NCBI GenBank assembly: GCA_001898415.1
Contig: MKTU01000029.1
Coordinates: forward strand, 1 to 64,000
DNA: 64,000 bases
Direction of reading: 5' to 3'
DNA from: Rhodanobacter sp. 67-28
GTDB taxonomy: Bacteria; Pseudomonadota; Gammaproteobacteria; Xanthomonadales; Rhodanobacteraceae
The notes beneath the pieces are model-generated. The model was given only the letters and a program-made list of their open reading frames with translations, made no database searches and was not told the origin of the DNA. Both the position numbers and the translations under genes were made by a program. Of this stretch, positions 2,540 to 18,528 are shown piece by piece (position 1 is the stretch's first letter; every line of letters starts with the position of its first letter).

Positions 2540-2584
2540 ATCACACCAGAGCGGCCTGGCCACCTCCATTGCACGAAGGTGTCG
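2540..2584 (-). promoter_or_regulatory. Conserved activator-type promoter of the ohr/hydrolase operon
   Basis: On the minus strand the box CGACACCTTCGTGCAATGG (2566-2584) is followed, after exactly 20 bases, by TGTGAT (2540-2545) within CTGGTGTGAT. The same layout occurs upstream of the epoxide-hydrolase operon (9232-9276) and the SDR at 14351 (15197-15241). TGTGAT is a plausible -10 element. There is no good -35 and the box covers that area, as in activator-dependent promoters. The regulator is inferred to be the FixJ-type protein at 18931. Confidence 0.6.
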
Positions 2585-2615
2585 ATCGATACCAAAGCAT
2601 CACGGCGCCACACGA

Positions 2616-4244
2616 TCAGCGCCGGATGTCTTCCACCAGTTGCCCGTCGGAAAGCTCGAGCCAGCGCTCCACATCGATCTCTTCCAGGAACGCCGGATCG
2701 TGGCTGACCACGACCAGCGCGCCCTCATACGCGCGTAGCGCCTGCGCCAGCAGATCGACGGAAGCGAGGTCGAGATTGTTGCCGGGCTCGTCCAGCAGCA
2801 GCAGTTGCGGTGCCGGCGTGGCATGCAGCACGCAGGCCAGCACCGCACGCAGGCGCTCGCCACCGGACAGCGCGGCGGCCGGCAGATGCATGCGCGCCCC
2901 TTGGAATTGCAGGCGGGCAAGCAGGTTCGCCCGCTCCTGCACCGGCATGTCGGGTGCGGCCAACGCCAGGTTTTCGGTCACCGTGCGGGCGGGATCGAGC
3001 CGGTCCAGTCGTTGCGTCAGGAAAGCCACGCGACCCGCGCCGCGTCGCAGCTTGCCTGCGTCCGGCGGCAGCTCGCCGGCGATCACCCGCAGCAGGCTGG
3101 ATTTCCCCGCGCCATTGCGGCCACCCAGCGCGATGCGTTGCGCCCCCCGGATGCTCAGCGCCAGCCCCTGCGTGCCGAACAGCTCGCGGCCACCCTGCCG
3201 CACGCGCAAACCTTCGGCGGCGAACAGCACGCGATCGGTTGGCACCCGCGTGGCCGGCAACGAGAGCTCCAGCGGCGCGCTTTCGCGCAGCGCGCGTGAC
3301 GCATCGCGCAGGTGCACTCGCGCCTGCTCCAACCGCGCCGCGTGCGTCGCGTCTGCCTTCGCCGCCGCCACCTGCGCCGCGCTCTTGCGCTTGCCTGCCA
3401 CGATCCGCGGCAGCCCCGCATCGGCCAGGCCGCGCGCGGCGCTGCCCGCCCGTCGCGCGGTGCGTTCGCGTGCCTGCTGCATCGCGCGCTGTTCGCGCTT
3501 CACCTCGCTGCGCAGGTTGCGTGCCTGCTGCTCGGCCGCATTCCGCGCCGTTGCCAGCGCATCGCGATAGAACGAAAAGCCGCCGCCGTAGACACACAGG
3601 CCAGTCGGTGCCAGCTCGGCGATCTGCTCCATCGGTTCCAGCAATTCCCGATCGTGGCTCGCCACCAGCAGGCAGCCCTTCCAGTCCTGCAGCACCGATG
3701 CGAGCCGCTGGCGCGCCGCCCGATCCAGGTTGTTGCTCGGCTCATCCAGCAGCAGCACGTCAGGACGCCGCAGCAGTTGCGCGGCGAGCCCTAGCGACAC
3801 GGTCTCGCCGCCGCTGAACGTGGCCAGCCGGCGCTCCAGCGCCACCCCGCCGAGGCCCAGCCGGGCCAGCGTGGCCATGCTGCGCTCGCGCAGGTTCCAG
3901 TCGCCGCCCACCGCATCGAAATGCGCGGGATCGGCATCGCCCCCGGCGATCGCCTCCAGCGCACGCAGCTTCGCCGCGATGCCCAGCACCTCGGCGACCG
4001 TGGCTTCGCCATCCATCACCAGGTCCTGCGGCAGGTAGCCGACGACGCCGGACACTTCGATCCGGCCTGCCTGCGGTTGCAGTTCGCCGGCCAGCAGTTT
4101 CAGCAAGCTGCTCTTGCCCGCGCCGTTCGGCGCGACCAGACCGGTGCGCGAGGCACCCAGGGCGAAGGAAAGCCCCTCAAGCAGCGGCGTGCCGTCGGGC
4201 CATGAAAAAACGAGATTGGAAACGCGAATGCGTGGATTCGACAT
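2616..4244 (-). CDS. ABC-F family ATPase
   Basis: 542 residues, soluble, with two ABC domains and no membrane segments. ATG 4244 is preceded by GGGAGG. Domain 1 has Walker [10 protein letters not shown] (38-46), signature FSGGE and Walker [12 protein letters not shown]. Domain 2 has [17 protein letters not shown] and [11 protein letters not shown]. The linker is highly charged and Arg/Ala-rich ([17 protein letters not shown]). ABC-F proteins act on the ribosome (translation factors or antibiotic protection). Which subgroup this is cannot be told by eye; Uup/YheS-like or a small uncharacterised branch are possible. It is followed by a large gap on the same strand and is probably transcribed alone. 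Confidence 0.88.
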
Positions 4245-4406
4245 GCGGAACCTCCCATAGTGCGCCGCCACCGGGCGGGCGCGGCTGAAGCCGGGCGGCA
4301 GGCTTTCGGCATGCCGTCAGATGCTATGGATGGACCGTGTGGCTCACATGGGGATCGCGATCTCCTGCAGGGGCACGCATTCTATGCTGCTGTGGCTGCA
4401 CGTGGG

Positions 4407-5240
4407 CTAGACGACCGGAAAATCCGTCGACGCGCTCAACGCGCGCCATCGCTCCAGTTCTTCCAGCTTCGCGCGATCGGCTTGCTCGATGATCTTCAAC
4501 GCATCGCTGCCCAGCGGCAGGCGAAACGGCGGTTGCTCCAGCGCGGCCAGTTTGAGGATGGCTTGCGCAGCCCGCACCGGATCGCCCGGTTGCTTGCCGT
4601 CGTAGGCGCGTTGCGCCCGCGCGGTCGCGCCGACCACCGCATCGTATTCCGCACGCCCCTCGTTCAAACGGGTCGACGCGCCGGCGAAGTCGGTGCGGAA
4701 GCCACCGGGCTCGACCACGCTGACGTGCACGCCGATCAACGCCATCTCGCGCGCCAGCGATTCGGAGAAACCCTCGATCGCCCATTTGGCCGCCGAATAC
4801 GGCGCGCGCCCCGGCGCACCGATCCTTCCGCCCACCGACGAGAACTGGATGATGTGGCCGCTGCGCTGCCCGCGCATCAGCGGGATCGCGGCCTTGGTCA
4901 TGATGATGGTGCCGAACAGGTTGGTATCGATCTCGCGGTGGAAGTCCTCCAGCGAGGTGTCTTCCACCGCATCGACATTGCCGTAGCCGGCCACGTTGGC
5001 CAGCACGTCGAGCCCGCCGAACTCCTGGAGCGCCGTGGCCACGGCATGGCTGGCAGCCGCCGGATCGGTCACGTCGAGCGCCACCAGCCGCACCGCGTCG
5101 CCATGGCACTGCTTCAAGTCGTCGAGCGTCGACGGATCGCGCGCGGTGGCGACCAGTCGGTGCCCAGCCGCAAGCACTGCCTCGGCCAGTGCACGGCCGA
5201 TGCCGCGCGAACTGCCGGTGATGAGCCATCGTTGTGACAT
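4407..5240 (-). CDS. Short-chain dehydrogenase/reductase
   Basis: 277 residues. ATG 5240 follows GAGAGGAA. It has the classical SDR cofactor motif TGSSRGIG near the N-terminus, the acid after beta-2/3 (LDVTD), NVAG in place of NNAG, and the active site Ser (SSVGG) with YSAAK as the Tyr-x-x-x-Lys. It is NAD(P)-dependent; an Arg at the end of beta-2 (ATARDP) favours NADP. The length and the extended C-terminus (ILKLAALEQPPFRLPLGSDA) match the oxidoreductases often annotated as DltE/YusZ-like. The substrate is unknown. The conserved 19-bp box seen upstream of neighbouring stress genes is absent here. Confidence 0.85.
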   Translation of the reverse strand: MSQRWLITGSSRGIGRALAEAVLAAGHRLVATARDPSTLDDLKQCHGDAVRLVALDVTDPAAASHAVATALQEFGGLDVLANVAGYGNVDAVEDTSLEDFHREIDTNLFGTIIMTKAAIPLMRGQRSGHIIQFSSVGGRIGAPGRAPYSAAKWAIEGFSESLAREMALIGVHVSVVEPGGFRTDFAGASTRLNEGRAEYDAVVGATARAQRAYDGKQPGDPVRAAQAILKLAALEQPPFRLPLGSDALKIIEQADRAKLEELERWRALSASTDFPVV

Positions 5241-5441
5241 GTCGATTCCTCTCTGTGATTTTCCCATTGCCATCGGAGTCGACCACCTCCGTTCGCCCCC
5301 GGATCAGGTCCGGGGCAGGCTCTGGGCGAAAGCCGAAGGCCGGAGTCGAAGGGCTCGCCCGACATGAACTCCAGTAACTGGCGGCGCTTCGACTCCGCCC
5401 GCTACGCGGGCTACGCTCAGCGGGAACGGTTGGAGTTGGGG

Positions 5442-5951
5442 TCAGGGCGCGAAGCGCGTGAAGACGAGGTCGTGGTTCTTCACCCGCGCCTGGTGGCAGG
5501 CGTAACAGCTGCGATGCTGCGCCTCGTCGGTCGGCTTGCCGTCGACGAAGCGGCCGAAGCCCCAACCGCCGGTGGCCGCGTATTTCTTCGAATCCTTCAC
5601 CATGAACTGCACCGTGGTCGCCGCGCCGGGGATGGAGGCCGGCTCGAACTCGAGCGACGGCACGTGTCTCCACGCCAGCTTGGCCAGCACCGTGCCATCG
5701 GGGAACGGCAGCGTGCCATCACGATAAGCCTTGATCGCGATGGCGTTGCCCAACACCGCGCGCAGCTCGTCCAGCGGCGCCGCCTCCTGTGCCGGGGCGA
5801 TCAACTGCCATTGCCGGTAACCGTCGGGGATGGTGACGCCGTAGATCGGCGAGGCAGGTTTGCCGGCGGAGCTGGCGTGGGCGACGGATGCCATTGCCAG
5901 CGCGAATGATGCAGCGACAGCCGCAATGATGACGAGTTGTATCAGTTTCAT
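5442..5951 (-). CDS. Cytochrome P460 family haem protein
   Basis: 169 residues with a cleavable signal peptide (hydrophobic 6-25, cut near AHA). The mature protein has the cytochrome P460/c'-beta fold signature: IPDGYRQWQLIAP near the N-terminus, FMVKDSKKYAATGGWGFGRF centrally, and the haem-binding CYACH near the C-terminus, followed by VKNHDLVF. These periplasmic haem proteins bind or oxidise small nitrogen compounds such as NO or hydroxylamine. A detoxification role is inferred. It is transcribed in the same direction as the epoxide-hydrolase operon, but an inverted pair of dispersed repeats (5991-6068) separates them. Confidence 0.85.
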   Translation of the reverse strand: MKLIQLVIIAAVAASFALAMASVAHASSAGKPASPIYGVTIPDGYRQWQLIAPAQEAAPLDELRAVLGNAIAIKAYRDGTLPFPDGTVLAKLAWRHVPSLEFEPASIPGAATTVQFMVKDSKKYAATGGWGFGRFVDGKPTDEAQHRSCYACHQARVKNHDLVFTRFAP

Positions 5952-5990
5952 CGGGGTGCTCCCTCGCGAAAAACCTCACCTTCTGCATGC

Positions 5991-6068
5991 CGTCATTCCC
6001 GCGAAAGCGGGAATCCAGGTTGCTTTCCTGCAAGATCAAAATGGATTCCCGCTTTCGCGGGAATGACG
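5991..6068. repeat. Inverted pair of REP-like dispersed repeats
   Basis: Two 27-base copies face each other: one at 5991-6017, beginning CGTCATTCCCGCGAAAGCGG, and its exact reverse complement at 6042-6068, separated by 24 bases. Each copy is itself a hairpin (CCCGC/GCGGG), so the pair can form a large cruciform. It sits between the P460 gene and the hydrolase operon and could end transcripts or stabilise RNA. Related copies occur at 15363-15500. REP-like elements are usually moved by RAYT transposases; none is in this window. Confidence 0.85.
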
Positions 6069-6093
6069 AGCAAGGAGGACGGCTTTCCTGGGG

Positions 6094-7146
6094 TCAAAGA
6101 TGGCCCGCGTCGACTACCGCCTTCGTAAACGCCTGCGGCGCTTCCTGCGGCAGGTTGTGGCCGATGCCGCCGGTGATCAGGCGGTATTCGTACTTGCCGG
6201 TGAAGTGCTTGCGATAGGCCTCGGCCGGCGGATGCGGTGCGCCGTTGGCGTCGCCTTCCATGGTGATGGTCGGCACGCTGATGGCCGGGAACGCGGCGAG
6301 CTTCTTTTCCAGCGCCGCGTACTTCGCCTCGCCCTTGGCCAGGTCCAGCCGCCAGCGATAGTTGTGGATCACGATGGCGACGTGGTCAGGATTGTCCATC
6401 GCCACCGCGCTGCGCTCGAAGGTGGCGTCGTCGAACTTCCACTGCGGCGAGGCCAGCTGCCAGATCAGCTTGGCAAAATCGCGGCGATTCTGTTCATAGC
6501 CGATGCGACCGCGCTCGGTCGCGAAGTAGTACTGATACCACCACGGCAGTTCGGCCTTCGGCGGCAGCGGATGCTTGCCCGACTCCTGGCTGCCGATCAG
6601 GTAGCCGCTCACCGACACCAGCGCCGTGACCCGCTGCGGCCACAAGGCCGCGACAATGTCGGCCGAACGCGCGCCCCAGTCAAAGCCGGCCAACTCGGCA
6701 CGCTGGATTTTCAGCGCATCCATGAAATCGATCACGTCCTGCGCCAGTGCCGCGGGCTCGGCGTTGCGCATGGTTTTCGCGGACAGGAAATGCGTGCTGC
6801 CATAACCGCGTGCGTATGGCACCAACACGCGATAACCCTTCGCCGCCAGCGCCGGGGCGACATCGGCGAAGGCGTCGATGTCGTAAGGCCAGCCATGCAG
6901 CAGGATCACCACGGGACCGTCGGCCGGGCCCCGTTCCGCGTAGGCCACATTCAGCACGCCGGCCTTGATGTGTTTCAGCGGGCCCAGCGTGGCGTGGGCC
7001 GCCGCGGATTGCATCGACACCGGCTCGATCGTTTGCGCATGGGCCACGCCCAGCAGGCCCAGAGGCGCCATGGCCAGCGCAAGCAGCGATGAACCGACAA
7101 AGCGCCGGGTCGTCTGGCCGGCTCCGTTCAACACGTTCACGTTCAT
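6094..7146 (-). CDS. Exported epoxide-hydrolase-like alpha/beta hydrolase
   Basis: 350 residues. ATG 7146 follows GGAG. The N-terminus TTRRFVGSSLLALA has a twin-arginine-like signal ending near AHA (about residue 37), so Tat export is possible. The core has LLHGWPYD (HGxP motif), the nucleophile Asp in AGFDWGARSAD where esterases have Ser, and a late His in GGIGHNLPQEAP. This is the active-site arrangement of soluble epoxide hydrolases and haloalkane dehalogenases. It is the distal gene of a run 7804-9153, 7202-7807, 6094-7146. The substrate is unknown. Confidence 0.85.
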   Translation of the reverse strand: MNVNVLNGAGQTTRRFVGSSLLALAMAPLGLLGVAHAQTIEPVSMQSAAAHATLGPLKHIKAGVLNVAYAERGPADGPVVILLHGWPYDIDAFADVAPALAAKGYRVLVPYARGYGSTHFLSAKTMRNAEPAALAQDVIDFMDALKIQRAELAGFDWGARSADIVAALWPQRVTALVSVSGYLIGSQESGKHPLPPKAELPWWYQYYFATERGRIGYEQNRRDFAKLIWQLASPQWKFDDATFERSAVAMDNPDHVAIVIHNYRWRLDLAKGEAKYAALEKKLAAFPAISVPTITMEGDANGAPHPPAEAYRKHFTGKYEYRLITGGIGHNLPQEAPQAFTKAVVDAGHL

Positions 7147-7201
7147 GGGGGTCTCCGTGACAGGCGCCTGGCCCGCCGTTCTGGTTCAGGTGGTGGAGCA
7201 A

Positions 7202-7807
7202 TCAGCTCGCGACGTATCGCCGCTGGTGCGAACGCCAAGCCAGCAGCAAGGCCTGGACGATGAAGAACACGCCGCCGCCGGTGGCGTAGACGGCCAGCGC
7301 GTCGAGCGAGGGTCGATCGCCGGCGGCCCGGACGACGTAAGAGACACCGACGAGGAAGGACAGCCCGCCCGCGATCAGCATCGGCCACTGCCGGCCCAGC
7401 TCGGGGCCGCGCCGGCGCAGGCCGACGATCAGCTGTGCCGCACCGGAGACGACAGCCCAAGTGCCGAACACCGCCAGCGCTGCCGGCACCCCGGCACCGC
7501 CCGCCGCACCCATGGCGATGGCGGCGAAGGTACTCAGCACCCAGTTGAACGCAGTGACCCGGCGTGCCGATCCGTTCGGCATGCTGCGGTAGTCGATCAG
7601 TGACGACACCGCATCGATCAAGGGATAGGCGGCCAGCAACGCGATCGCCAGGGCGTCCAGCGTGGCGTGGGCACCGGTGAAGACCACCGCCCATGCCACC
7701 GCCAGCAAGCCGCGGATCAAATACAGCTTCAGCAACGAGGCACGCCCGCCGTTCGGCGCGGGCACGCGCGTGGCCGGCGCGTTTTCATGGAGCAGGGTCG
7801 CATTCAT
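7202..7807 (-). CDS. DUF308-like integral membrane protein
   Basis: 201 residues with six likely membrane helices (LYLIRGLLAVAWAVVF, LDALAIALLAAYPLID, FNWVLSTFAAIAMGAAGG, AALAVFGTWAVVSGAAQLIV, WPMLIAGGLSFLVGVSYVV, VYATGGGVFFIVQALLLAW). The fold and RG/GAxxL spacing resemble DUF308/HdeD-like proteins, small membrane proteins with stress links but no known reaction. Its ATG overlaps the stop of the preceding epoxide hydrolase by four bases, so the two are translationally coupled. The role in the operon is unknown. Confidence 0.7.
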   Translation of the reverse strand: MNATLLHENAPATRVPAPNGGRASLLKLYLIRGLLAVAWAVVFTGAHATLDALAIALLAAYPLIDAVSSLIDYRSMPNGSARRVTAFNWVLSTFAAIAMGAAGGAGVPAALAVFGTWAVVSGAAQLIVGLRRRGPELGRQWPMLIAGGLSFLVGVSYVVRAAGDRPSLDALAVYATGGGVFFIVQALLLAWRSHQRRYVAS

Positions 7808-9153
7808 CGCCGCGCTCCATCACGGTTGCGCAACGGCCGGAAGGCCTCGCGCAATTCCTCGCTGAACAACTGCGGCTGCTCCCAGGCCGCGAAGTGGCCG
7901 CCCTTGCCCGCCTCGTGGAAGTAATAGAGCGTGGGGTAAGCCAGCTTCGTCCAGCTCTTCGGCGCGCGATAGATCTCGCCGGGAAACACCGTCACCGCCA
8001 CCGGCACCTTGATGGTGGCGGTCTTCTGCGCCGCGGCGCTGAAGTTGTTGTTGTTGTTTTCCCAGTAGAAGCGCGACGACGCGGCACCGGTGTTGGTCAC
8101 CCAGTACAAGGTCAGGTCGTCGAGGATCTGGTCGCGGCTGAGCACGCGCTCGGGGTGGCCATCACTGTCAGTCCACTCGGCGATCTTCTCGTAGGTAAAG
8201 GCGGCCAGGCCGGCGGGCGAATCGGACAGCGAATAGCCGATAGTCTGCGGCCGCGTCACCATCATCGCGCCGTACGCCGCGTTGCGGCCGAAGAACGTGC
8301 TGAGCTGGTGGTACGCGCGGCGTTCGTCGGCAGAGAGGTTCGCCGGCGCCGGCGCGCCGGTATTGATGCCCGCCACCAGGTTCGCCGGTATCGTCGCCGG
8401 CATGTTGAGGTGGATGCCGAGCAGCCCCTTCGGCGCCTGGCGCGCCAGCGCATCGGAAATCACCGAGCCGTGGTCACCACCCTGCGACACGTAATGCGTG
8501 TAGCCCAGGCGCTTCATCAGCACGTCCCAGGCCTTCGCCACCCGATCCGGATTCCAGCCCAGCTCGGTCGGCTTGCCCGAAAAGCCGTAGCCGGAGATCG
8601 CCGGAATCACCACGTCGAACGCATCCGTGGCGCGACCGCCGTAGGCCACCGGATCGGTCAGCGGCCCGATCGTATTGATGAACTCCAGCGGCGAACCCGG
8701 CCAGCCGTGGGTGAGGATCAGCGGCATCGCGTTCGGCTCGCGCGAACGCACATGGATGAACTGGATATCGACACCGTCGATCGTGGTGACGAACTCCGGC
8801 AGCGCATTCAACTTCGCCTCCACCTTGCGCCAGTCGTAGCCGTCGCCCCAGTACCTCAGCAGCGCCTGCACCGTCGCCAACTGCACGCCTTGCGACGTGT
8901 CGCCCACGGTTTCCCGGTCGGGCCAGCGCGTGTCGGCGATGCGCTTGCGCAGATCGGCCAGCTCGGATTCCGGCACGTGGATCCTGAAAGGACGAATGCT
9001 CGTGTCGCCCTTGCCGGCAGTCGACGCCGCACCGGCGACCGAAGCGGCCTGGGCGAAATGGCAAGGCACCGACAAGGCCACCGCACTGGCCATGACCAGG
9101 AACGAAGCGACCAACGGACGCCGACGAGGCAACGCGGGGAAGGCTGAAGACAT
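7804..9153 (-). CDS. Exported epoxide hydrolase, microsomal type
   Basis: 449 residues. ATG 9153 was chosen because it has GGAG upstream and opens a signal peptide (hydrophobic 15-35, cut near AQA); longer readings are not signal-like. It has the N-terminal epoxide-hydrolase domain (IRPFRIHVPESELADLRKRI), typical of the microsomal/juvenile-hormone class, then LTHGWPGSPLEF (HGWP oxyanion motif), nucleophile Asp in SQGGDHGSVIS and a catalytic His in GKGGHFAAWEQP. The enzyme opens epoxides to diols through an Asp ester; the natural substrate is unknown. It is the first gene of a three-gene operon under the conserved promoter at 9232-9276. Confidence 0.88.
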   Translation of the reverse strand: MSSAFPALPRRRPLVASFLVMASAVALSVPCHFAQAASVAGAASTAGKGDTSIRPFRIHVPESELADLRKRIADTRWPDRETVGDTSQGVQLATVQALLRYWGDGYDWRKVEAKLNALPEFVTTIDGVDIQFIHVRSREPNAMPLILTHGWPGSPLEFINTIGPLTDPVAYGGRATDAFDVVIPAISGYGFSGKPTELGWNPDRVAKAWDVLMKRLGYTHYVSQGGDHGSVISDALARQAPKGLLGIHLNMPATIPANLVAGINTGAPAPANLSADERRAYHQLSTFFGRNAAYGAMMVTRPQTIGYSLSDSPAGLAAFTYEKIAEWTDSDGHPERVLSRDQILDDLTLYWVTNTGAASSRFYWENNNNNFSAAAQKTATIKVPVAVTVFPGEIYRAPKSWTKLAYPTLYYFHEAGKGGHFAAWEQPQLFSEELREAFRPLRNRDGARR

Positions 9154-9668
9154 GACCGATCTCCGGGGGGCGGAAGCACCGCAGCGCACGATGCGTAGCG
9201 GTGAGCTGCCCAAGGGCAACTCGCAGAACCGATCACACCAGATGACCCGGAGACGCACGATTGCACGATGGTGTCGGTCGATACCTTGGTATCGGTGGGT
9301 TTGCGCGCTTCTCTCTTTCCGTGAGGGTGCAGCGAGCTGGTCAAGTTTTTGGCTCGCCCTCACGGGTATAAAACGAACCCGCCGCTAGCCGGCATCCACC
9401 ACGAACGAATCAGCGGGTGGATGAGGTGTTGGAATTCGGGGCATTTGTGGCGATGGGAGGCTCGCTATACGAGCTCGACCCGGATGCGGCGAAAAGTCAC
9501 CGATCCAATGGCAGAAATCTGCCAGAAGCAGCCAATCAGAGCGCATTCTTGACTCGCCGCTTCAGGCAGGCACTAGGTCACTTGGGGCCACCAAACGTCA
9601 ATCACCATCCGACCGATGCAGCTGATTCAATTATTCCGGTGCCACGGAGTGGCCGACAGGTACCTGCC
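9154..9668. other. Intergenic region with promoter and probable island junction
   Basis: This holds the promoter of the epoxide-hydrolase operon (9232-9276). From about 9330 to 9668 I find no convincing gene. This part is less GC-rich and has several short open stretches without ribosome sites. It separates the minus-strand hydrolase operon from the AT-richer Gabija-like pair, so it may be the left edge of an inserted block. No direct repeat, tRNA or integrase was seen. Confidence 0.5.
9232..9276 (-). promoter_or_regulatory. Conserved activator-type promoter of the epoxide-hydrolase operon
   Basis: On the minus strand the box CGACACCATCGTGCAATCG (9258-9276) is followed 20 bases later by TGTGAT (9232-9237) within CTGGTGTGAT. 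The box is identical to that at 15223-15241 and differs at two positions from that at 2566-2584. On its upstream side lies a further inverted repeat, CGATACC-TT-GGTATCG (9279-9294), which may be a second binding site. Confidence 0.65.
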
Positions 9669-10700
9669 CTAGGATCGCTTGTAGGCTTTCAGCAAGGACT
9701 CGGGAATGAATGTCAGATTACCCCTCGCCCGAGAACATGCGACATACAGCTTATTGCGCGTCTTCGCGTTGATGCCCCGGAAGCCACCACCATGCCAAGC
9801 TTTTACGCTGCCGGGGTTCAGGACCACGCATACATCTTGGTATCGGTCGATGCCCTTCGAGGCCCCCCAGTTCTGGGAAAAACAGCCGTACTTGTGATGC
9901 TCATCGTAGAAAAGCTTGACGGTACCGGGATCATCGTAGATGGCGGCCACCGCCGCCGCATCATCCTCAAAACGAACTACGCTGGGCCGATCATCATGCG
10001 CCTCGATCTCGATGCCGATCCTCTGTGTGATGAAATCGCAGACGCTCTTACTGCAGCGGCGGCTCTTCTTGAGGCTGTCGGTGTCGACCTCCAGCTTGGC
10101 CCGCTTAAACCGCTCCTTATAGGTGCGGTAGTCGTTATGAAGGCTAGCATTGACGTTCCCATCACGGCTTGTGTCAAACGTGTGTTGGTAGAAGTCGCCG
10201 ACGAAGGTCATGTTCATGCGGGCCGCGCTGATGGCCATCAGAAAATTGAAGTCGTGACCGGCGAAATCTTGGACCTCATCCACGAAGAAGACGTCGAAGT
10301 ACTTTTCCATTCGGGCCACAACTGCGTCGATCAGGCCAGACTGCTCGATGAACTTGGCTAGGCGATTCGCATAGAGCCGGCGGTCGGACGACATGTAACG
10401 CCGGTCATCCGTCAGGCCATATCTCGGGAATGTTGGGGGGAGGCGAAACATCACCCCTCGAGTGTCCATCTTCGATCGCAGAAAGGGTCGGTAGCAGAAG
10501 CTATGCAGGAATCTGAAGTAGGTGTAGAGCGCAATGTTGGGCGGTAGGTAGCCGAAACGCTCGATTACCTTAGTGCGCAGGTTGTGGTGATTAGCATCGG
10601 TGTAAGTGACCAGCAGAAAGCGCCGTGTCTCGTCCAGTGCGGCCACCAGTCGGGACGTCTTGCCCGACCCGGCGACGGCAAACATCACTCTCTTATCCAT
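9669..10700 (-). CDS. Short UvrD/Rep-like helicase, Gabija GajB-like
   Basis: 343 residues. It has a superfamily 1 helicase motif I, AVAGSGKTS (8-16), motif II DEVQD (141-145), motif III-like FVGDFYQH and a C-terminal VACSRARG like motif VI. Known GajB proteins are longer (roughly 500 residues); here the 1B/2B insertions seem reduced. Its ATG overlaps the end of the OLD-type nuclease gene by 16 bases, the gene order of class 2 OLD/Gabija systems, where GajB partners the GajA nuclease in phage defence. The helicase-like family is sure; the Gabija assignment is likely but rests on neighbourhood. Confidence 0.75.
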   Translation of the reverse strand: MDKRVMFAVAGSGKTSRLVAALDETRRFLLVTYTDANHHNLRTKVIERFGYLPPNIALYTYFRFLHSFCYRPFLRSKMDTRGVMFRLPPTFPRYGLTDDRRYMSSDRRLYANRLAKFIEQSGLIDAVVARMEKYFDVFFVDEVQDFAGHDFNFLMAISAARMNMTFVGDFYQHTFDTSRDGNVNASLHNDYRTYKERFKRAKLEVDTDSLKKSRRCSKSVCDFITQRIGIEIEAHDDRPSVVRFEDDAAAVAAIYDDPGTVKLFYDEHHKYGCFSQNWGASKGIDRYQDVCVVLNPGSVKAWHGGGFRGINAKTRNKLYVACSRARGNLTFIPESLLKAYKRS

Positions 10701-12253
10701 GCGACCGCCTGCTGGATGTATTCCGGCGCGACAAGCGCGGCGCCATCATGCTGCAGCAGCGCAAAAGCGGCGTCAGTCTTGTTCTTTAGCATGTATTCCT
10801 CGACGCCCAGGCTCTTGCGCCCCGCCGCAAAGAGCGCTTCGCACGTGGCCTTGTTGTCCTGGTATATGCAGACTTCGAAGGTATGCCGGGCATTGTCGGT
10901 GTCCGCGAAAACCTGGATGGACGGCGACACGTGGCCTGCATAGTTCGCAACGCAATTGGTCGCATGATCGTGATCGTTGTCGCGGATTACCGCCACTTTT
11001 ATGCCAAGCAGCCTCGCGAGTTCGAGATAGCGCTTGAAGCTCGTGCCATCGACGGAAATCACATGGACGCCGTCCGCATCGAGGGTTCTCCCGGGCGCAC
11101 TTAGCCTGTAGAGCTTTTCCACCAGGATAAACTCGGCGTCCCCTTCGACTAGGATGGCCTTCTTGCACAGGGCCAGTTCTAGGACGTTGTTGTCTGGCGC
11201 CTTCATGAAAAATTCGGCGGTACCCTGACTGAGATCCTTCAGGTTCGCCGGTCGCGATGGGTTCTCCTCGCTCAGGATGATTACCTTCTTGAGATTAAGG
11301 CGCGTCGTGATGAAGCTACTGTGCGTGGCCACAAAAAGCTGCTTCTTGACAGAGGCCCGGATGCGCTCGATCAGCATACGCATGTGGACATGGCTGAGGT
11401 GGTTCTCCGGTTCCTCCAGCAACAGTACGTTGAGCGCGTGCTCGCGGTTGCGCAGTGCGAACTCCGTCTTGATGAAGCACTGACGGCCCTTACCCTTGCT
11501 GTCGACCGGGATGTCGTCTTCGGTGATGATGATGTCGGTCTCGATGCTGGCCTTCGGGCTGGTACGGACATCGAACTTGTAGCTGTCCAGCGCATCGTTC
11601 ATCACCTTGAAGGTGTCGTCCTTGAACTTCGCCTTGGCCTTGCGGTATTCGAAGGCATGCAGATTGCGCTGCGCGACGGTCGCATGCGCCGCGTACATCG
11701 AACGCGTGTACTCACGCATGGCGTACTCGTTGTTGATGAGGGAACTGTCGATCAACAAGTGCCCCAGCGGCTTCTTGTAGGGAAAAACGGCCTCGTCTGT
11801 GAAGGTTAGGAAATGCACGCCGTAGTATTCGAAGGGAAAGTTCTCATGCTTCTCGGCGAGGATGGCCTGGATCTGCTTCGTGTACTCGTCCACCGGTTTG
11901 CACACCATCTTGATGCCCAGGTGATCGATTCCCTTGCTGTTATTGCGGCCGTCCAGCTCGTGGTGGCCCGCCAAGCCATCGAAGTAGACCTCGACTAGTA
12001 ACTCGGGGAGTTCGGCAACCTTCCTGCTGCCACGCAGGAAAGCCGCTATGCAGTCGACGTTGAACAGGGCTTCAATCCCGATGGCCTCCACCTTGCTGCG
12101 GCTGGCGCTCAGCGCTATGTCCAACGCTTGAAGCACTGAACTTTTGCCTGCTTCATTGCCGCCAACCAGGATGTTCAGTTCAGGATCGAATTCTAGTTCA
12201 AGCGCCTTGAAGCGCTTGAAATTCTTAAGTATCAATCGCCGTATAGTCCCCAC
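10685..12253 (-). CDS. OLD-family ATPase/TOPRIM endonuclease, Gabija GajA-like
   Basis: 522 residues from GTG 12253, chosen because GGGGGAAAG precedes it and the product then starts with the typical IRRLILKNFKRF; an ATG at 12313 is the longer alternative. N-terminal ABC-type ATPase: Walker A GGNEAGKSS (31-39), Walker B LLLEEPENHLS near 277 and ATHSS as H-loop. C-terminal TOPRIM: ILVEGDAE with Glu near 370 and RDNDHD near 425 as metal-binding acids. In Gabija, GajA cuts DNA when nucleotide levels fall during phage infection. Base composition is visibly AT-richer than the flanks, which suggests transfer. Confidence 0.82.
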   Translation of the reverse strand: MGTIRRLILKNFKRFKALELEFDPELNILVGGNEAGKSSVLQALDIALSASRSKVEAIGIEALFNVDCIAAFLRGSRKVAELPELLVEVYFDGLAGHHELDGRNNSKGIDHLGIKMVCKPVDEYTKQIQAILAEKHENFPFEYYGVHFLTFTDEAVFPYKKPLGHLLIDSSLINNEYAMREYTRSMYAAHATVAQRNLHAFEYRKAKAKFKDDTFKVMNDALDSYKFDVRTSPKASIETDIIITEDDIPVDSKGKGRQCFIKTEFALRNREHALNVLLLEEPENHLSHVHMRMLIERIRASVKKQLFVATHSSFITTRLNLKKVIILSEENPSRPANLKDLSQGTAEFFMKAPDNNVLELALCKKAILVEGDAEFILVEKLYRLSAPGRTLDADGVHVISVDGTSFKRYLELARLLGIKVAVIRDNDHDHATNCVANYAGHVSPSIQVFADTDNARHTFEVCIYQDNKATCEALFAAGRKSLGVEEYMLKNKTDAAFALLQHDGAALVAPEYIQQAVAWIRE

Positions 12254-12570
12254 GTACGTCTTTCCCCCATTCGAAATTGACCTTCTGATCTGTAATACCG
12301 GCATCACCGCCATGAGCGGCGCGAGCTATACCGATTCAGTCAGACCGACATACTTCGAGATGATAGCCAGAACCTCACGTCCAGTCGTTGCGTTAGGACG
12401 CTCAGGGATGCAGGCTCGCGCAAACGGTCTGTAACAAAGGGGACGAAGGCAATTAATGCCTTTTAACTACCTCCGTCACTTTCGATTGCTTTTGAGCGGT
12501 GCCAGCAGGATACGGTCTCGGGCGGTGAGACGCCTCGGCGTAAGCTGCTCACTGGAACAGGGAGCACGAC
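12254..12570. other. Divergent intergenic region between two defence genes
   Basis: Non-coding by eye. It must hold the divergent promoters for the OLD/helicase pair and the HNH gene. It contains a perfect hairpin AAGGCA-ATTAA-TGCCTT at 12446-12462 followed by TT, which could be a small terminator or an operator. No gene or repeat with matches elsewhere in the window was seen. Confidence 0.4.
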
Positions 12571-13872
12571 ATGGCGTATTACGTTCACAACGTGGGAAAG
12601 CCGGCCAACGACGCGTGGTGGCACCAGCTCTTGCATCGCGGGGTGATCACCACGGGCTTCGAAGGCGAGCCGGGCGATCGGGGCGCCCTCACCCTCGCTC
12701 GGTTGGAGCAAGGGGATTGGGTCATCGCTTGGGCGAATGGCGCCGGCTACGTGGGCGCGGGCCAGGTGCGGGGCGCGGACACATATCGGTATCACCCCAC
12801 CTCGCCCTTGGGTTCGCGCTCGGACCATCAACACGAGCGCGGCGTCACGTGGTCCGTGGCCCTTCCCTCGCTCGCCCAAGCCGTGAGCGAAACCGAAGCG
12901 GGGCGCCGGCATCCGCGCAACACCTTGGAAGCGGTCAGCGACCCTATGGTGGGTGAGCGCTTGATTGAGCGGCTGCGTGAACGCGGCGCACTGGATCTTT
13001 CGTCAGGGCTGCGCGTCAGTGGCTCCGACAATTTTTGGCTGGCCGGGGACGCCGTGTTGACCCTGTTTGCGCGCGAGGGGCATCCAGTGTCGGTGGCGGA
13101 AGCCAAGGCCTACATCGAGCAGCGTGTGCCCGGCTACAAGCTGACCAACACGGCGCCCGATCTCTGCCTGCTCTCCGTCAACGATCGCAGCCGAGGCCAC
13201 CACGCCCGCGTTCGCCAGGGGGTGAAGCTGCGCTCGGATCAGGACCATCCCCATGACGTGCTCTACAAGCACTATGTGCCAGGCGAGCCCCGGTACGAGT
13301 CCTACCGGCTCGCCGATCATGGTGTATGGCGCTTGGAGCCTGACCACAAGGGCGTGCCGCGACTGGTGGAGCCTGGCCGTGAGGTTTCGCTGGTGGACGC
13401 GGCGATGCTTGCAGCCCAGGAGGACCTGGACGACACCGTGGCAGCAGAAGGCGCATTGAGCTCCGAGCAGCAGGCGCGTGAATGGAACTTGCGCGCCGTC
13501 GCTCGGCGACGGGGCCAGTCCAAGTTCCGACATCAGCTCCTGGCCGCTTACGGCCACCGTTGCGCGATGACCGGTTGCGCGGTGGTGGATCTGCTCGAAG
13601 CCGCCCACATCCTGCCCCACCGGTTGGTGGGCGACGGCGGGCACCAGGTCAACAACGGTTTCCCCCTGCGCGCCGATCTGCACACCCTCTTCGACCTCGG
13701 GCACGTCTGGGTAGATGAAGCCGAGCGCATCCAGCTCAGCGCCGCCCTGGACGGCTCCGAATATGAGCCGCTCCGCGGCCAGCCCCTGATCAAACCCCAG
13801 CGGGCGGAACACGCCCCACACCCGGAGCACCTGGCGCATCATCGGGTGCGCGTGGCGGGCCAGCCAGCTTAG
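12571..13872 (+). CDS. EVE-like domain/HNH endonuclease, probable modified-DNA restriction enzyme
   Basis: 433 residues. The ATG at 12571 is preceded by an AGGGAG site. The N-terminal 80 residues (YYVHNVGK....WWHQLL..GVITTGF....GDWVIAWANGAGYVGAGQV) look like a PUA/EVE-type reader domain. The middle part has a winged-helix-like segment. The C-terminus (about 319-395) is an HNH nuclease: FRHQLLAAYGHRCAMTGC, EAAHILPH, N-NGFPLRADLHTLFD. Reader-plus-HNH enzymes are modification-dependent restriction nucleases; this role is inferred. The gene is more GC-rich than the adjacent Gabija-like pair, so the two may have different origins. Confidence 0.75.
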   Translation: MAYYVHNVGKPANDAWWHQLLHRGVITTGFEGEPGDRGALTLARLEQGDWVIAWANGAGYVGAGQVRGADTYRYHPTSPLGSRSDHQHERGVTWSVALPSLAQAVSETEAGRRHPRNTLEAVSDPMVGERLIERLRERGALDLSSGLRVSGSDNFWLAGDAVLTLFAREGHPVSVAEAKAYIEQRVPGYKLTNTAPDLCLLSVNDRSRGHHARVRQGVKLRSDQDHPHDVLYKHYVPGEPRYESYRLADHGVWRLEPDHKGVPRLVEPGREVSLVDAAMLAAQEDLDDTVAAEGALSSEQQAREWNLRAVARRRGQSKFRHQLLAAYGHRCAMTGCAVVDLLEAAHILPHRLVGDGGHQVNNGFPLRADLHTLFDLGHVWVDEAERIQLSAALDGSEYEPLRGQPLIKPQRAEHAPHPEHLAHHRVRVAGQPA

Positions 13873-13882
13873 GAAAGTTTGC

Positions 13883-14293
13883 ATGACGGAACAGGATTTC
13901 CACGCGGCGGTCGACGCGGCGGTGGCCCGATGGCACCAAGATCACCACGGAGAGCCGCTGACTTCCGTGGTCTTCGCTGAGGCCCAGCCCGCGCAGTGCC
14001 ACGCCAACGCAGCCGCCTACGCCACGCGGCATGGCGGTGAGGTGTTGCACGGTTTTCTCGTGCAATACCCGCACGCCTGGCCGCAAGTGTGGGTCATGCC
14101 CCACTCCGTGGTTCGCACTGGTCAAGGGCTGATAGACGTCACGCTCAGCCCGGATGAGCTCCGGGGCCTGGGGTTCTTCGCCATGGAAACTGCGATGACG
14201 AATTTCGTGGACATGGCGAAGCGGTTTCCACGCGAAATCCGGCCGGTTGCGGCGGCGCTGCTCATCCGCATGGGGCCTGACAACCGCCTCTGA
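13883..14293 (+). CDS. Unknown small protein paired with the HNH nuclease gene
   Basis: 136 residues, starting 10 bases after the HNH gene, with AGGAAAG ahead of ATG 13883, so probably co-transcribed. Not recognised. A possible active-site series is Cys (QCHANAAAYA), then HAWPQVWV, then Asp in LIDVTL. This C...H...D order is that of papain-like and transglutaminase-like folds, but here it is only a pattern. No signal or membrane segment. It could be an accessory or immunity partner of the nuclease, or unrelated. Confidence 0.7.
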   Translation: MTEQDFHAAVDAAVARWHQDHHGEPLTSVVFAEAQPAQCHANAAAYATRHGGEVLHGFLVQYPHAWPQVWVMPHSVVRTGQGLIDVTLSPDELRGLGFFAMETAMTNFVDMAKRFPREIRPVAAALLIRMGPDNRL

Positions 14294-14350
14294 CGAACGG
14301 CGTCAGCACAGCAGTATACGAAGTGGCTGCGCAGGGATACCCGCCGCCTC

Positions 14351-15097
14351 TCACGCCAGATAACCACCATCAACCGTCAGCGCCGCGCCGGTGATGTAGC
14401 TGGCCTCAGGCCGAGCCAGGTAGGCGACCAGGCTGGCTACTTCGTCGCCGCTGCCCATGCGTCCCAGCGCCATCAGCGGGCGTAGCCGTTCGCGCACGGC
14501 TTCGTCGCTGACGATGTCGGTTTCGGTGGGGCCGGGTTGCACCACGTTGACGGTGATGCCGCGGGGGCCGAGGTCGCGGGCCATGCCGCGGGTCAGGCCG
14601 GCGACGGCGGCCTTGCTCATGCTGTAGGCGGACGAGCCGGCAACTGCGGTGCGGTCCGCGGCCACGCTGCCGGTGGTGATGATGCGGCCGCCCTCGCCCA
14701 TGTGCGCCAGCGCCGCCTGCACGGCCACGAACACGGCGCGCACGTTCACCGCCACGATGCGATCGAAATCGGCCAGCGCGTAGTGGTCGACGCTGCCGTT
14801 GCTGATGATGCCGGCGTTGTTGACCAGGATGTCCAGATGGCCAAACCGCTGCGCCGCCTGCGCCACAGCCGCCTGCACTTCGGCGGGTTCGGCGCTGTCG
14901 GCCCTGATCGCGAAGGCCTTGCCGCCGCTGGCCCCGACCTGCGCCGCCAACTGGTCGGCCGCCGCGGATGCGGCGGCGTAGGTGAACGCCACGGACGCGC
15001 CCTCGCTGGCGAGCCGGCGCACGATGGCCGCACCGATGCCGCGCGATCCGCCGGTGACCAGCGCGGCCTTGCCGGCGAGACTTTTTGTGTCATGCAT
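14351..15097 (-). CDS. Short-chain dehydrogenase/reductase, FabG-like
   Basis: 248 residues. ATG 15097 follows GGAGGAA. Classical SDR: TGGSRGIG cofactor motif, NNAG, catalytic Ser in TTGSVA, YSMSK as Tyr-x-x-x-Lys, and the C-terminal VDGGYLA. It resembles glucose dehydrogenase or 3-oxoacyl-ACP reductase-like enzymes, NADP likely; the substrate is not deducible. It is transcribed away from the kinase operon and carries the strongest copy of the conserved promoter (15197-15241), tying it to the ohr and epoxide-hydrolase operons on the far side of the defence block. Confidence 0.88.
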   Translation of the reverse strand: MHDTKSLAGKAALVTGGSRGIGAAIVRRLASEGASVAFTYAAASAAADQLAAQVGASGGKAFAIRADSAEPAEVQAAVAQAAQRFGHLDILVNNAGIISNGSVDHYALADFDRIVAVNVRAVFVAVQAALAHMGEGGRIITTGSVAADRTAVAGSSAYSMSKAAVAGLTRGMARDLGPRGITVNVVQPGPTETDIVSDEAVRERLRPLMALGRMGSGDEVASLVAYLARPEASYITGAALTVDGGYLA

Positions 15098-15196
15098 GGG
15101 GTGGCTTCCTCCGGATGGGTTTCGCGCGCGGGCTGCGCGCGAAGGGCTCTTCGGACCTGCGCGGAAACGCGCGGGACTCGGGTGGACCTCGCACCC

Positions 15197-15241
15197 ATCA
15201 CAGCAAACCCCGCCAGTCCATGCGATTGCACGATGGTGTCG
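15197..15241 (-). promoter_or_regulatory. Conserved activator-type promoter of the SDR gene
   Basis: On the minus strand CGACACCATCGTGCAATCG (15223-15241) is followed 20 bases later by TGTGAT (15197-15202). The box is identical over all 19 bases to that of the epoxide-hydrolase operon, 6 kb away, and the spacing to TGTGAT is the same, although the sequence between them differs. Conservation of box and spacing but not of the filler points to function rather than recent duplication. Confidence 0.65.
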
Positions 15242-15362
15242 CTTGGATTGTCGCCGCACGCCACCATGGCGCGGCACACGCTGAACCCGGCGAAGAACGG
15301 TGGCGCGCTTCGGCCATCGGCGCGGCCTTTCTCAACGATCCTTGGGGAAGGTTGGAACAAGT

Positions 15363-15500
15363 CGTCATCCCAGCGAGACGCCTTTCAACGGCCGAAGGGC
15401 CGGGCACGCTGGGATCCAGTGCCTCGGCAACTGCTTGGAGACGCTGGATGACCAGCCTTCGGCTGTTGTAAAGCTCTTCCCGCTTTCGCGGGAATGACGG
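15363..15500. repeat. REP-like repeat cluster
   Basis: It contains a hairpin with arms CGTCATCCCAGCG (15363-15375) and CGCTGGGATCCAG (15407-15419), and a second element, TTCCCGCTTTCGCGGGAATG (from 15478), ending GACG, matching the 5991-6068 family. These are dispersed palindromic repeats of the host genome, here between two divergent genes. Confidence 0.75.
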
Positions 15501-15618
15501 CCGGGAGGGTTGCAGGAATGATGGTCCTCGGACGCAGGGCGTGGATCTATTCCGGACAGCAGTGAGCTTTCGCTGGAATGACGAGCAAGAGCATTCCTGG
15601 CACCGACGAAGCGCCAAC

Positions 15619-15637
15619 CGACACCAAAGTATGATGG
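15619..15637 (+). promoter_or_regulatory. Weak copy of the regulatory box upstream of the histidine kinase
   Basis: CGACACCAAAGTATGATGG on the plus strand, 13 of 19 bases identical to the box at 9258 and 15223, in the same orientation relative to its downstream gene, 57 bases before the kinase ATG. The TGTGAT seen 20 bases downstream in the other three sites is absent here. It could allow autoregulation of the two-component operon; it may also be chance. Confidence 0.35.
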
Positions 15638-15693: not shown

Positions 15694-18528
15694 ATGAACA
15701 ACGCATTCAGCCGTATCGTCGATGTGCTCCCCGGCCTGGTCCTGACGGCGTTTCCCGACGGACGCGTCGACTTCGTCAATGCACGCTGGCGCGAATACAC
15801 CGGCGACGGCATGGCCGAGGCCACCGGTGATGGATGGCTGCGTGCGATTCATCCCGACGACCTCGCCCTGGTTCGCGATGGCTGGCGCGACATGCGCGAA
15901 TCCGGCCAGGCGACCGATCTGCAGGCGCGGTTGCGCCGCTTCGACGGCCACTGGCGCTGGTTCCTGTTGCGGGCCAGGCCGATGGATGACGACGGCGGGT
16001 CGGCTGTTCGCTGGTGCGCCATGCTGGTGGACATCGACGATCAGCGCCGGGCCATCAACGAGGGGTCTGCGCTTCATGTCGAATTCTCCGCCATCGCCGA
16101 CGTGATTCCCGCGTCCCTGCTGCTGATGACGACGGATGGCGAGGTCGAGTTCGCCAATCGCCAGGCGCGGGAATTCCGTGGCGCGTCGCTGGAGCAACAG
16201 AAAGGCTGGAGGACGGCCAACCTCATCCATCCGGACGACTTGCCTGCGGCCATCGCGCAGTGGGATCACTGCGTCGCGACCGGTGACCGGTTCGAGATGG
16301 AATTTCGCGTGCGGCGAGCCGATGGCGTGTATCGCTGGTTCCACGTGCGCACGCTGCCGGTGCGCGACGCGCAGGGACGCATTACGCGCTGGTGCACGCT
16401 GGACGAGGACATCGACGACCGCAAGCGCAGCGAGGCGTTGCTGTCCGCCACGCTGGGCGAGCTAACCGCCTCGGAAGACCGCCTGCGCACCATCGTCGAT
16501 GCGATCCCGGGCTTTGTCTGGAGTGCCGGCCCGGACGGCGGCGTGGACTTTCTCAACCAGCGCTGGTGCGACTACACCGGCGTAGCGATGCGCGACGCCC
16601 TTGGCAATTGCTGGGCGTCGACGATCCATCCGGAAGATTCCGGCGGTATCCAGGCATGTTGGCGATCGCTGCTGGAATCCGGGCAGGCGGGCGAGTTCGA
16701 AGCCCGGCTGCGGCGCTTCGATGGCAGCTTCCGCTGGTTCCTGATCCGCGCCGTGCCGCTGCGCAATGCGGATGGCCAGGTGATCCGCTGGTACGGGCAG
16801 AACACCGATATCGAGGACCGCAAGCGGGACGAACGCCTGCTGGAGGGCGAGAAGCACCTGCTGGGCCTGATGGCCAGCGGCACGCCGCTGGCGCAGGTGC
16901 TCACCGCGCTGTGCGCCCTGGTGCAGGCCGCGATGGCCGGGGCGCTTTGCGGTGTCACGCTGGTCGACCCCCGCTGCACGCGTTCATGGCAGCAAGCCCT
17001 GCCGCGCGTGCGCCTGCAGCCGGGCGCCGCACCGGATGTTCCCGGCGACCTGTTGCAGGACACGGGCGGGCAATCGCTGGCACCGGAAACCGGCCCGATC
17101 GCGACATCGGCAACGCAGGGCGAGCCGATCATCGCCACCGACCTGGCGACCGAAAACCGCTGGAACGCGTGGACCGCGGCTGCGCTCGCGCATGGCATCC
17201 GTGCTCACTGGTCGACGCCGATCAGGTCCAGCGGCGGCGAGCTGATGGGCGTTTTTTCGCTGCTGTGGCGGGAGCCGGCCGCATCCACGCCGGCCCACCA
17301 CAACCTGATCGCCCAGTTCACCCACCTGGCCAGCATCGCGATCGAACGCGCGCGCAGCGAAGCCGCGCTGCGGCAGAGCGAGGCATTCCTGGCCCGGACC
17401 CAGCGCCTGACGCTTACCGGCACGGTCGCCTGGCGCGTCGACAGCGACGAAATCCTGTGGTCGGACGAGCTGTACCGGATCTACGAATTCGCGCCCGGCG
17501 TGACGCTGACGCACGACCTGATCAACACGCGGATCCACCCCGAAGACATCCCCGCACACGACGAGATGCTGCGACGGCGGCGCCACGACGCCAGGGATTT
17601 CGAGAGCGAGCACCGCCTGCTCATGCCGGATGGCAAGGTGAAGTTCCTGCATCTGGTCGCCCACGCGACGCGCGACGAAGAAGGCGGGCTGGCCTACATC
17701 TCCGCCGTGCAGGACGTCACCCAACGCCGGCTGGCGGAAGAGGCGCTGGGCAAGGCGCGCGCCGAACTGGCCCACGTGGCCCGCGTGGCCACCCTGGGCG
17801 CGTTGACCGCCTCGATCGCGCACGAGGTGAACCAGCCGCTGGCGGGCATCATCACCAATGCCAACACCTGCCTGCGCATGCTCGGCGCCGATCCGCCGAA
17901 CGTGGATGGCGCGCGCGAAACCGCGCGCCGCACGATCCGCGACGGCAACCGCGCGTCGGACGTGATCAAGCGGCTGCGCGCGCTGTTCGCCAAGAAGAAG
18001 GCCGTGGCCGAGCCGCTGGACCTCAACGAGGCGGCGCGGGAGGTCGTAGCCATGCTGCTGGGCGAACTCCAGCGCAACGGCGTCACTCTTCATCCCGACT
18101 TTGCCGACGACCTTCCGCCCGTGGTGGGCGACCGCGTGCAGCTGCAACAGGTGATCCTCAACCTGATTCTCAACGCGTCCGACGCGATGACCGGCATCAC
18201 GGATCGCCCACGGTACATGACGATCCGGACCGTTCACGACGAAAGCGGCTGCGTCTGCCTGTCGGTGCGCGACGTCGGCGCGGGGTTCGACCCGCAGGAC
18301 GCGGGCTCGCTGTTCAACGCATTCTTCACCACCAAGGCCGACGGCATGGGCATCGGCTTGTCCGTCAGCCGTTCCATCATCGAAGGGCACGATGGGCGGT
18401 TGTGGGCGGAGGCGAACGAGGGACCGGGCGCCACGTTCACGTTTTCCATCCCCTGCCTGCCCGCGAAAGCCGCCGTTGCCGGCCCAGGCGCCCCCGCCGA
18501 TTCAAACCGCACCACGGAGAGTTCCTGA
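15694..18528 (+). CDS. Multi-PAS/GAF hybrid-free sensor histidine kinase
   Basis: 944 residues. ATG 15694 follows GAGAGGG. Domain order by eye: three similar PAS/PAC units (about 1-125, 130-255, 265-390, each ending with a WFL-R..P..D..G.W-type PAC), a GAF-like domain (about 395-565), a fourth PAS (570-680), HisKA with His710 in IAHEVNQPL, and an HATPase with NLILNASDAM and GMGIGLSVSRSI. No membrane segment, so a cytoplasmic sensor; the stacked PAS domains suggest redox, aromatic or small-ligand sensing. The C-terminal kinase type resembles FixL/TodS-like kinases that pair with FixJ-type regulators. Its stop overlaps the start of the receiver gene. Confidence 0.92.
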   Translation: MNNAFSRIVDVLPGLVLTAFPDGRVDFVNARWREYTGDGMAEATGDGWLRAIHPDDLALVRDGWRDMRESGQATDLQARLRRFDGHWRWFLLRARPMDDDGGSAVRWCAMLVDIDDQRRAINEGSALHVEFSAIADVIPASLLLMTTDGEVEFANRQAREFRGASLEQQKGWRTANLIHPDDLPAAIAQWDHCVATGDRFEMEFRVRRADGVYRWFHVRTLPVRDAQGRITRWCTLDEDIDDRKRSEALLSATLGELTASEDRLRTIVDAIPGFVWSAGPDGGVDFLNQRWCDYTGVAMRDALGNCWASTIHPEDSGGIQACWRSLLESGQAGEFEARLRRFDGSFRWFLIRAVPLRNADGQVIRWYGQNTDIEDRKRDERLLEGEKHLLGLMASGTPLAQVLTALCALVQAAMAGALCGVTLVDPRCTRSWQQALPRVRLQPGAAPDVPGDLLQDTGGQSLAPETGPIATSATQGEPIIATDLATENRWNAWTAAALAHGIRAHWSTPIRSSGGELMGVFSLLWREPAASTPAHHNLIAQFTHLASIAIERARSEAALRQSEAFLARTQRLTLTGTVAWRVDSDEILWSDELYRIYEFAPGVTLTHDLINTRIHPEDIPAHDEMLRRRRHDARDFESEHRLLMPDGKVKFLHLVAHATRDEEGGLAYISAVQDVTQRRLAEEALGKARAELAHVARVATLGALTASIAHEVNQPLAGIITNANTCLRMLGADPPNVDGARETARRTIRDGNRASDVIKRLRALFAKKKAVAEPLDLNEAAREVVAMLLGELQRNGVTLHPDFADDLPPVVGDRVQLQQVILNLILNASDAMTGITDRPRYMTIRTVHDESGCVCLSVRDVGAGFDPQDAGSLFNAFFTTKADGMGIGLSVSRSIIEGHDGRLWAEANEGPGATFTFSIPCLPAKAAVAGPGAPADSNRTTESS

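Follow-up and report, generated by a model that had tools for sequence, protein, structure and literature searches.

Does a short sequence block that recurs ahead of several stress-related genes mark them as a single regulon and, if so, which protein reads it? The question is raised by the first 64,000 nucleotides of contig MKTU01000029.1 of Rhodanobacter sp. 67-28 (assembly GCA_001898415.1), a stretch referred to here as the window. In it, the 19-bp box CGACACCATCGTGCAATCG lies ahead of an ohr gene, an epoxide-hydrolase operon and a gene for a short-chain dehydrogenase/reductase (SDR). Downstream of these units, on the opposite strand, are the genes for a sensor kinase, a single receiver and a FixJ-type response regulator. 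We conclude from sequence comparisons that the box is likely to be a real regulon motif and that this FixJ/StyR-type two-component system probably controls it. Systems of this kind are already known. The particular regulon and its operator, which appear to be widespread, are apparently undescribed, and no description of the regulon was found in the open-access literature, which omits most subscription journals.

Three box-bearing sites in the window

Identical copies of the box occupy positions 9258-9276 and 15223-15241, and a third copy, with two changes relative to CGACACCATCGTGCAATCG, lies at 2566-2584. All three are on the minus strand, ahead of genes and directed toward them, and in each case the hexamer TGTGAT starts exactly 20 bases downstream of the box. 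The positions, strand, identities, orientation and 20-base gap are exactly those given in the initial annotation of this stretch. However, the site is longer than was stated there. Read on the minus strand, two of the three copies have the layout GGTATCG-NN-CGACACC(A/T)TCGTGCAAT(C/G)G, 17 bases, TGGTGTGAT, where the GGTATCG-NN ahead of the box supplies an inverted repeat of CGAYACC. The first site (2540..2593, minus strand) is made up of the left arm GGTATCG, the box at 2566-2584, the spacer and TGGTGTGAT, and serves the ohr-hydrolase unit, and the second (9232..9285, minus strand) has the same parts around the box at 9258-9276 and serves the epoxide-hydrolase operon. The third (15197..15241, minus strand), which serves the SDR gene, consists of the box at 15223-15241, the spacer and TGCTGTGAT in place of TGGTGTGAT, and is without the left arm. 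In the window sites TGN precedes TGTGAT, resembling an extended -10 element, and the distance from the hexamer to the start codon is 71 bases for ohr (ATG at 2468), 78 for the epoxide hydrolase (ATG at 9153) and 99 for the SDR (ATG at 15097).

With up to three mismatches allowed, the box was found three times in the window against 0.06 expected; none of 100 shuffles reached three, and 200 letter-shuffled box queries gave a mean of 0.02 matches with a maximum of 1. In the whole genome (4,077,861 bases in 82 contigs), the box alone was present at 10 places at this threshold, compared to 1 for the reversed pattern. None of the seven matches outside the window has TGTGAT at +20 and, judged by context, most of them look coding and one is inside a CRISPR-like repeat array. 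This array, near position 50649 of contig C17 of the same genome (G000; locus L007), has the repeat unit GTTCGCTGCCGCGCAGGCAGCTCAGAAA and holds one chance box with three mismatches. The combination of box, N20 and TGTGAT at up to three mismatches was not found in the 4.08 Mb genome beyond the three window sites, and a looser form gave the same result. The genome-wide search that had been proposed as a check thus placed motif and spacing at no other position and, because the combination matches only these sites, the motif-defined regulon of this strain consists of three units.

A further, weaker copy of the box had been listed ahead of the kinase gene. A match at 13 of 19 positions does exist there (15619-15637, plus strand), but the 64 kb contain 22 windows that match the box at 13 positions, which puts it at chance level, and TGTGAT is missing at +20. 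It was rejected as a site.

Recurrence of the motif and of the regulator

In the family searched (233 genomes), which we take to be the Rhodanobacteraceae, the full motif was found at 16 places in 10 genomes, representing 7 of 26 genera, and the reversed-pattern control gave 0. These relatives carry several of the same cluster genes, often reordered. The regulator was found in 37 of the 233 genomes (E <=1e-50), with a step between 18 genomes scoring at least 248 bits and the rest, which scored at most 221. All 10 genomes with the motif fall among these 18, for which the probability is 4e-13 if motif and regulator were independent and kinship is ignored. Loci of 20-40 kb around the regulator (24 kb for the window itself) were taken from the 18 genomes, and the box is present in 16 of them at up to 1 mismatch and in 17 at up to 2 (0 and 1, respectively, for the reversed control). 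No box was found in three paralogue loci at 54-55 % identity. An extra perfect 19-base box in R. glycinis (L021:10102-10120, plus strand) is separated from the beginning of the kinase match by approximately 85 bases, faces away from it and is without TGTGAT.

In a class-wide sample of 369 genomes the motif was found only in the Rhodanobacter sp. 67-28 genome, and none of the 368 others gave a regulator match above 199 bits among the best few first-look candidates scored per genome (7 in this sample, 12 in the family search and 16 in the P. citronellolis family described below). An exact motif scan of one genome per species (84,980 species) returned 38 stretches in 31 genomes, mostly Variovorax and other Burkholderiales, and Pseudomonas. 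Twenty-seven of these genomes were examined for the regulator, three having been tested in the family search and the genome of L112 being left out. It was found at 251 bits or more in 22, and 3 have only weaker relatives (172, 175 and 215 bits). The remaining two, from Rhodobacteraceae and Harrisonbacteria, gave no match at E <=1e-40 and were taken as chance motif matches. In the P. citronellolis family, the motif is present in 9 of 178 genomes and the regulator, at 292 bits or more, in exactly the same 9; a tenth regulator match, at 226 bits, is without the motif. Five of these nine genomes are also among the 27, and the two tests therefore overlap.

The box also recurs when the TGTGAT spacing is not required. 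The 19-base degenerate form was found 59 times in the 27 genomes, compared to 0 for the reversed pattern. Long loci totalling 703,662 bases gave 52 boxes with no more than 1 mismatch, again compared to 0. The box is usually near a PAS kinase, a receiver and a FixJ-type regulator, and the box alone recurs on rhizobial plasmids. S. fredii, R. leguminosarum and R. indicum have box-bearing plasmids whose annotation places the epoxide hydrolases together with the kinase, receiver and regulator, and two unannotated S. meliloti plasmid regions are also among the box-bearing long loci. Nine of 12 plasmid loci with a relative of the regulator have the box at up to 1 mismatch, though the single boxes of the Caballeronia and Paraburkholderia loci are weak.

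Promoter form, genes served and candidate activator

The collected sites numbered 88, and exclusion of two probable chance matches (L096, Rhodobacteraceae, and L117, Harrisonbacteria) reduced them to 86. For 80 of these, a downstream open reading frame (ORF) was picked by a length-times-GC3 heuristic, with which some starts or frames will be wrong. The Pfam families found were Abhydrolase_1 (37), EHN (30), OsmC (5), creatininase (4), LuxR-type helix-turn-helix (HTH; 4), catalase, short-chain dehydrogenase, AhpC/TSA and Thioredoxin_10 (3 each), cytochrome P460 and RidA-like (2 each) and ferritin (1). The counts cover 25 of 40 matched families, one protein may count in several and, with the clusters linked to the kinase, they are not independent. 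Dps is another of the targets that the box precedes. The genes served are mostly an oxidant and electrophile defence set, and the earlier reading of the three units as a stress or detoxification regulon is supported, as the motif is unique in the genome and precedes the same kinds of gene elsewhere.

In the 17-base spacer of the 86 sites, there is little information away from the two ends. At position 38, 88 % have G, so that the hexamer is preceded by TG, and TGNTBWGAT is the extended -10 form in most sites. No conserved -35 was found among the 86. In a second promoter form (L045, L066, L087 and others), the same box is followed, without TG, by a TAANNT-like hexamer in the register of TGTGAT, and this supports reading TGTGAT as the -10. 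Box positions 5-12 form a short and imperfect dyad, ACC-WW-SGT, whose midpoint is some 31.5 bases upstream of the -10 hexamer; class II activation of the StyR/TodT type would call for a palindromic site centred near -41 of the start. Among 38 sites found without requiring the left arm, the arm is separated from the box by 2 bases in 17 and by 1 base in 6.

The identity of two window copies over 19 bases could suggest that the three boxes are recent duplicates of one promoter, without shared control. However, the 17-base spacers of the three sites differ from each other, it is mainly the box and -10 columns that are conserved across the 86 sites, and the genes behind the boxes come from different families, so that duplication is barely credible as the explanation. 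The two blocks could also form a promoter for an alternative sigma factor, for example of the extracytoplasmic function (ECF) type, rather than an activator site and a -10. The spacing is rigid, A is the second -10 base in none of the 86 sites, which is odd for a sigma-70 promoter, and GGTCTGAT-like versions of the -10 resemble sigma-E -10 elements. Yet the conserved upstream block, at 19-28 bases, is longer than a -35, a gap of 20 bases is long for ECF promoters, and the sites with a TAANNT-like hexamer keep the same register. Among the cluster proteins scanned (not every ORF), the sole sigma-type matches were sub-cut-off Sigma70_r4 matches to the HTH of the FixJ-type protein. We consider a sigma factor of this type highly improbable as the reader of the two blocks.

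The proposed activator is the FixJ/StyR-type response regulator encoded at 18931..19608 (plus strand), which combines a receiver (Response_reg, 92.5 bits) with a LuxR-type HTH (GerE, 77.9 bits) and so belongs to the NarL/FixJ family. The FixJ model is its best NCBIfam match and FixL/FixJ has the same combination of receiver and LuxR HTH, but the scores are below both equivalog cut-offs (218.5 bits against 255 for FixJ, NF006900; 260.3 bits against 850 for FixL, NF041777), and the boxes precede genes other than those of nitrogen fixation or respiration. The recognition helix also differs, being EITVKAHRG in most box-linked regulators and mostly KTVEAHRA-like in the FixJ relatives of the class sample. 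The nearest solved structure is 1yio/1zn2, which we take to be StyR. The StyR palindrome has an ACC-AT-GGT centre in common with the box and different outer bases; its letters were searched for in the literature and not found. StyS/StyR of styrene-degrading Pseudomonas (and TodS/TodT) likewise pair a sensor kinase with a FixJ-type regulator. They differ in that StyS/StyR controls styrene catabolism, whereas the targets here are stress hydrolases and peroxidases. According to PMC2442086, StyR-P activates from a high-affinity site at about -40 (the dyad centre here is predicted near -43), and PstyA has three StyR sites, whereas one site per promoter was found here. The ohr gene belongs to the same effector enzyme family as OhrR-controlled ohr genes, but it sits behind a two-component-type box instead, and no MarR-family match was found among the neighbouring window proteins scanned.

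The suggestion that the FixJ-type regulator binds the box, made when the stretch was first annotated, has gained indirect support from the co-occurrence in two families, the recognition helix and the fact that the regulator gene is itself preceded by boxes in R. leguminosarum, R. indicum, an S. meliloti plasmid and genome G682. In G669, a metagenome-assembled genome, three boxes lie on contigs that do not carry the closest regulator, which is consistent with action in trans. An alternative is that another DNA-binding protein binds the box and that the FixJ-type protein is merely co-inherited. Three box-bearing genomes without a close regulator, a pseudo-receiver LuxR protein behind the box in Burkholderiales and a LysR gene adjoining the regulator in R. 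leguminosarum and R. indicum would fit this, although boxes precede the FixJ-type gene in several genomes and the window cluster ORFs scanned include no other DNA-binding regulator. At E <=1e-3 the window holds no match to the pseudo-receiver protein, whose matches in the relatives' loci are weak (<=50 % over the HTH) and overlap FixJ genes in the loci compared. A different binder appears highly unlikely. In the Burkholderiales loci L092:6461-7153, L111:2638-3330 and L127:1231-1968, the box is followed by the gene for a LuxR-type regulator whose receiver is degenerate, possibly a second layer of the circuit.

Several observations, in addition to the missing A in the -10, weigh against an operator of the FixJ-type regulator placed upstream of a -10. 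The left arm is missing from the 15223 copy, one of three in the window, and from 15 of the 38 sites found without requiring it and, as its spacing from the box also varies, was rejected as an essential element. A T-N-W-N-AT form is absent from the usual place at 46 of 128 distinct boxes, and the search patterns behind most of the sites fix several -10 bases. Genome G078 has the regulator and no box at up to 2 mismatches in the locus taken, G187 has boxes only at 2 mismatches, G192 has the EITVKAHRG helix and no box in the 20 kb taken, and the plasmid loci of M. ciceri, Microvirga and B. stagnalis (3 of the 12) are without a box at up to 1 mismatch. Conversely, G657, G658 and G676 have the box and no regulator above 216 bits, and the helix is changed in box-bearing genomes G220 (EITIKAHRG), G668 (EITVKTHRG) and G672 (EITVKVHRG). 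Some regulators may have been missed, as only the best few first-look candidates in each genome were scored when whole genomes were searched for the protein. The co-occurrence probabilities ignore kinship and, because box and regulator are usually in one cluster, co-occurrence could arise by co-inheritance alone.

With these points weighed, we consider it probable that the box is the operator of the regulator at 18931-19608 and acts as a class II activator site upstream of the -10. The kinase would sense stress and phosphorylate the regulator, with the small receiver perhaps serving as a relay or sink in phosphotransfer. A regulator dimer would then bind the box, with the dyad centre near -43 from the predicted start, a class II position, and would recruit RNA polymerase to an extended -10 promoter that has no conserved -35. 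In this strain the ohr-hydrolase unit, the epoxide-hydrolase operon and an SDR would be switched on, a set suited to the removal of organic peroxides, epoxides and reactive carbonyls. A wider picture, which is speculative and on balance doubtful, is that alpha-, beta- and gamma-proteobacteria, many of them soil and root bacteria, share a regulon that has spread laterally. In it, the PAS kinase would sense oxidized lipids or similar electrophiles (e.g. plant oxylipins), and the StyR-like activator, through the box and a deliberately poor -10, would turn on Ohr, epoxide hydrolases, SDRs, catalase and Dps. What emerges is a putative operator, together with a candidate regulator and a set of genes, for a stress response recurring in many environmental proteobacteria. 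With the box as a search pattern, regulon members can be catalogued in new genomes, and a reporter strain could reveal the sensory input.

Gene content of the cluster and neighbouring genes

The unit behind the 2566-2584 box comprises ohr (2043..2468, minus strand), which encodes a 141 aa Ohr-type peroxiredoxin (TIGR03561, 160.4 bits, above the cut-off of 88.85), and a gene for an alpha/beta hydrolase (1178..1990, minus strand) with a signal-like N-terminus, as judged by eye. The apparent operon behind the 9258-9276 box, all on the minus strand, begins with a 449 aa epoxide hydrolase (7804..9153) with EHN and Abhydrolase_1 domains and, by eye, a signal-like N-terminus. It is followed by a protein with a weak DUF308 match (7202..7807; 23.4 bits, below the cut-off of 25), an alpha/beta hydrolase with a Tat-like N-terminus, also judged by eye (6094..7146), a cytochrome P460 family protein (5442..5951) and an SDR oxidoreductase, on the same strand and a probable operon member (4407..5273). 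An ABC-F family gene (2616-4271, minus strand) follows, between this operon and ohr, and is retained in R. glycinis. The SDR behind the 15223-15241 box is a 248 aa oxidoreductase (14351..15097, minus strand).

On the plus strand, the sensor kinase (15694..18528) contains PAS domains, GAF, HisKA and HATPase, and the single-domain receiver protein (18528..18899) lies between it and the regulator. Compared to several more distant relatives, the transmitter half of the kinase is approximately 54-60 % identical and the PAS half approximately 24-45 %. As the PAS half diverges more, swapped inputs on one output are suggested.

The epoxide-hydrolase operon is separated from the SDR-kinase part of the regulon by GajB-like and GajA-like genes (9669-12313, minus strand), identified by PADLOC (GajA, 374 bits; GajB, 163 bits) and corresponding to the Gabija anti-phage system. 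This pair may be an insertion, because the epoxide-hydrolase operon directly adjoins the kinase in R. glycinis. A gene for an HNH endonuclease-domain protein (12571-13872, plus strand) adjoins the Gabija-like pair.

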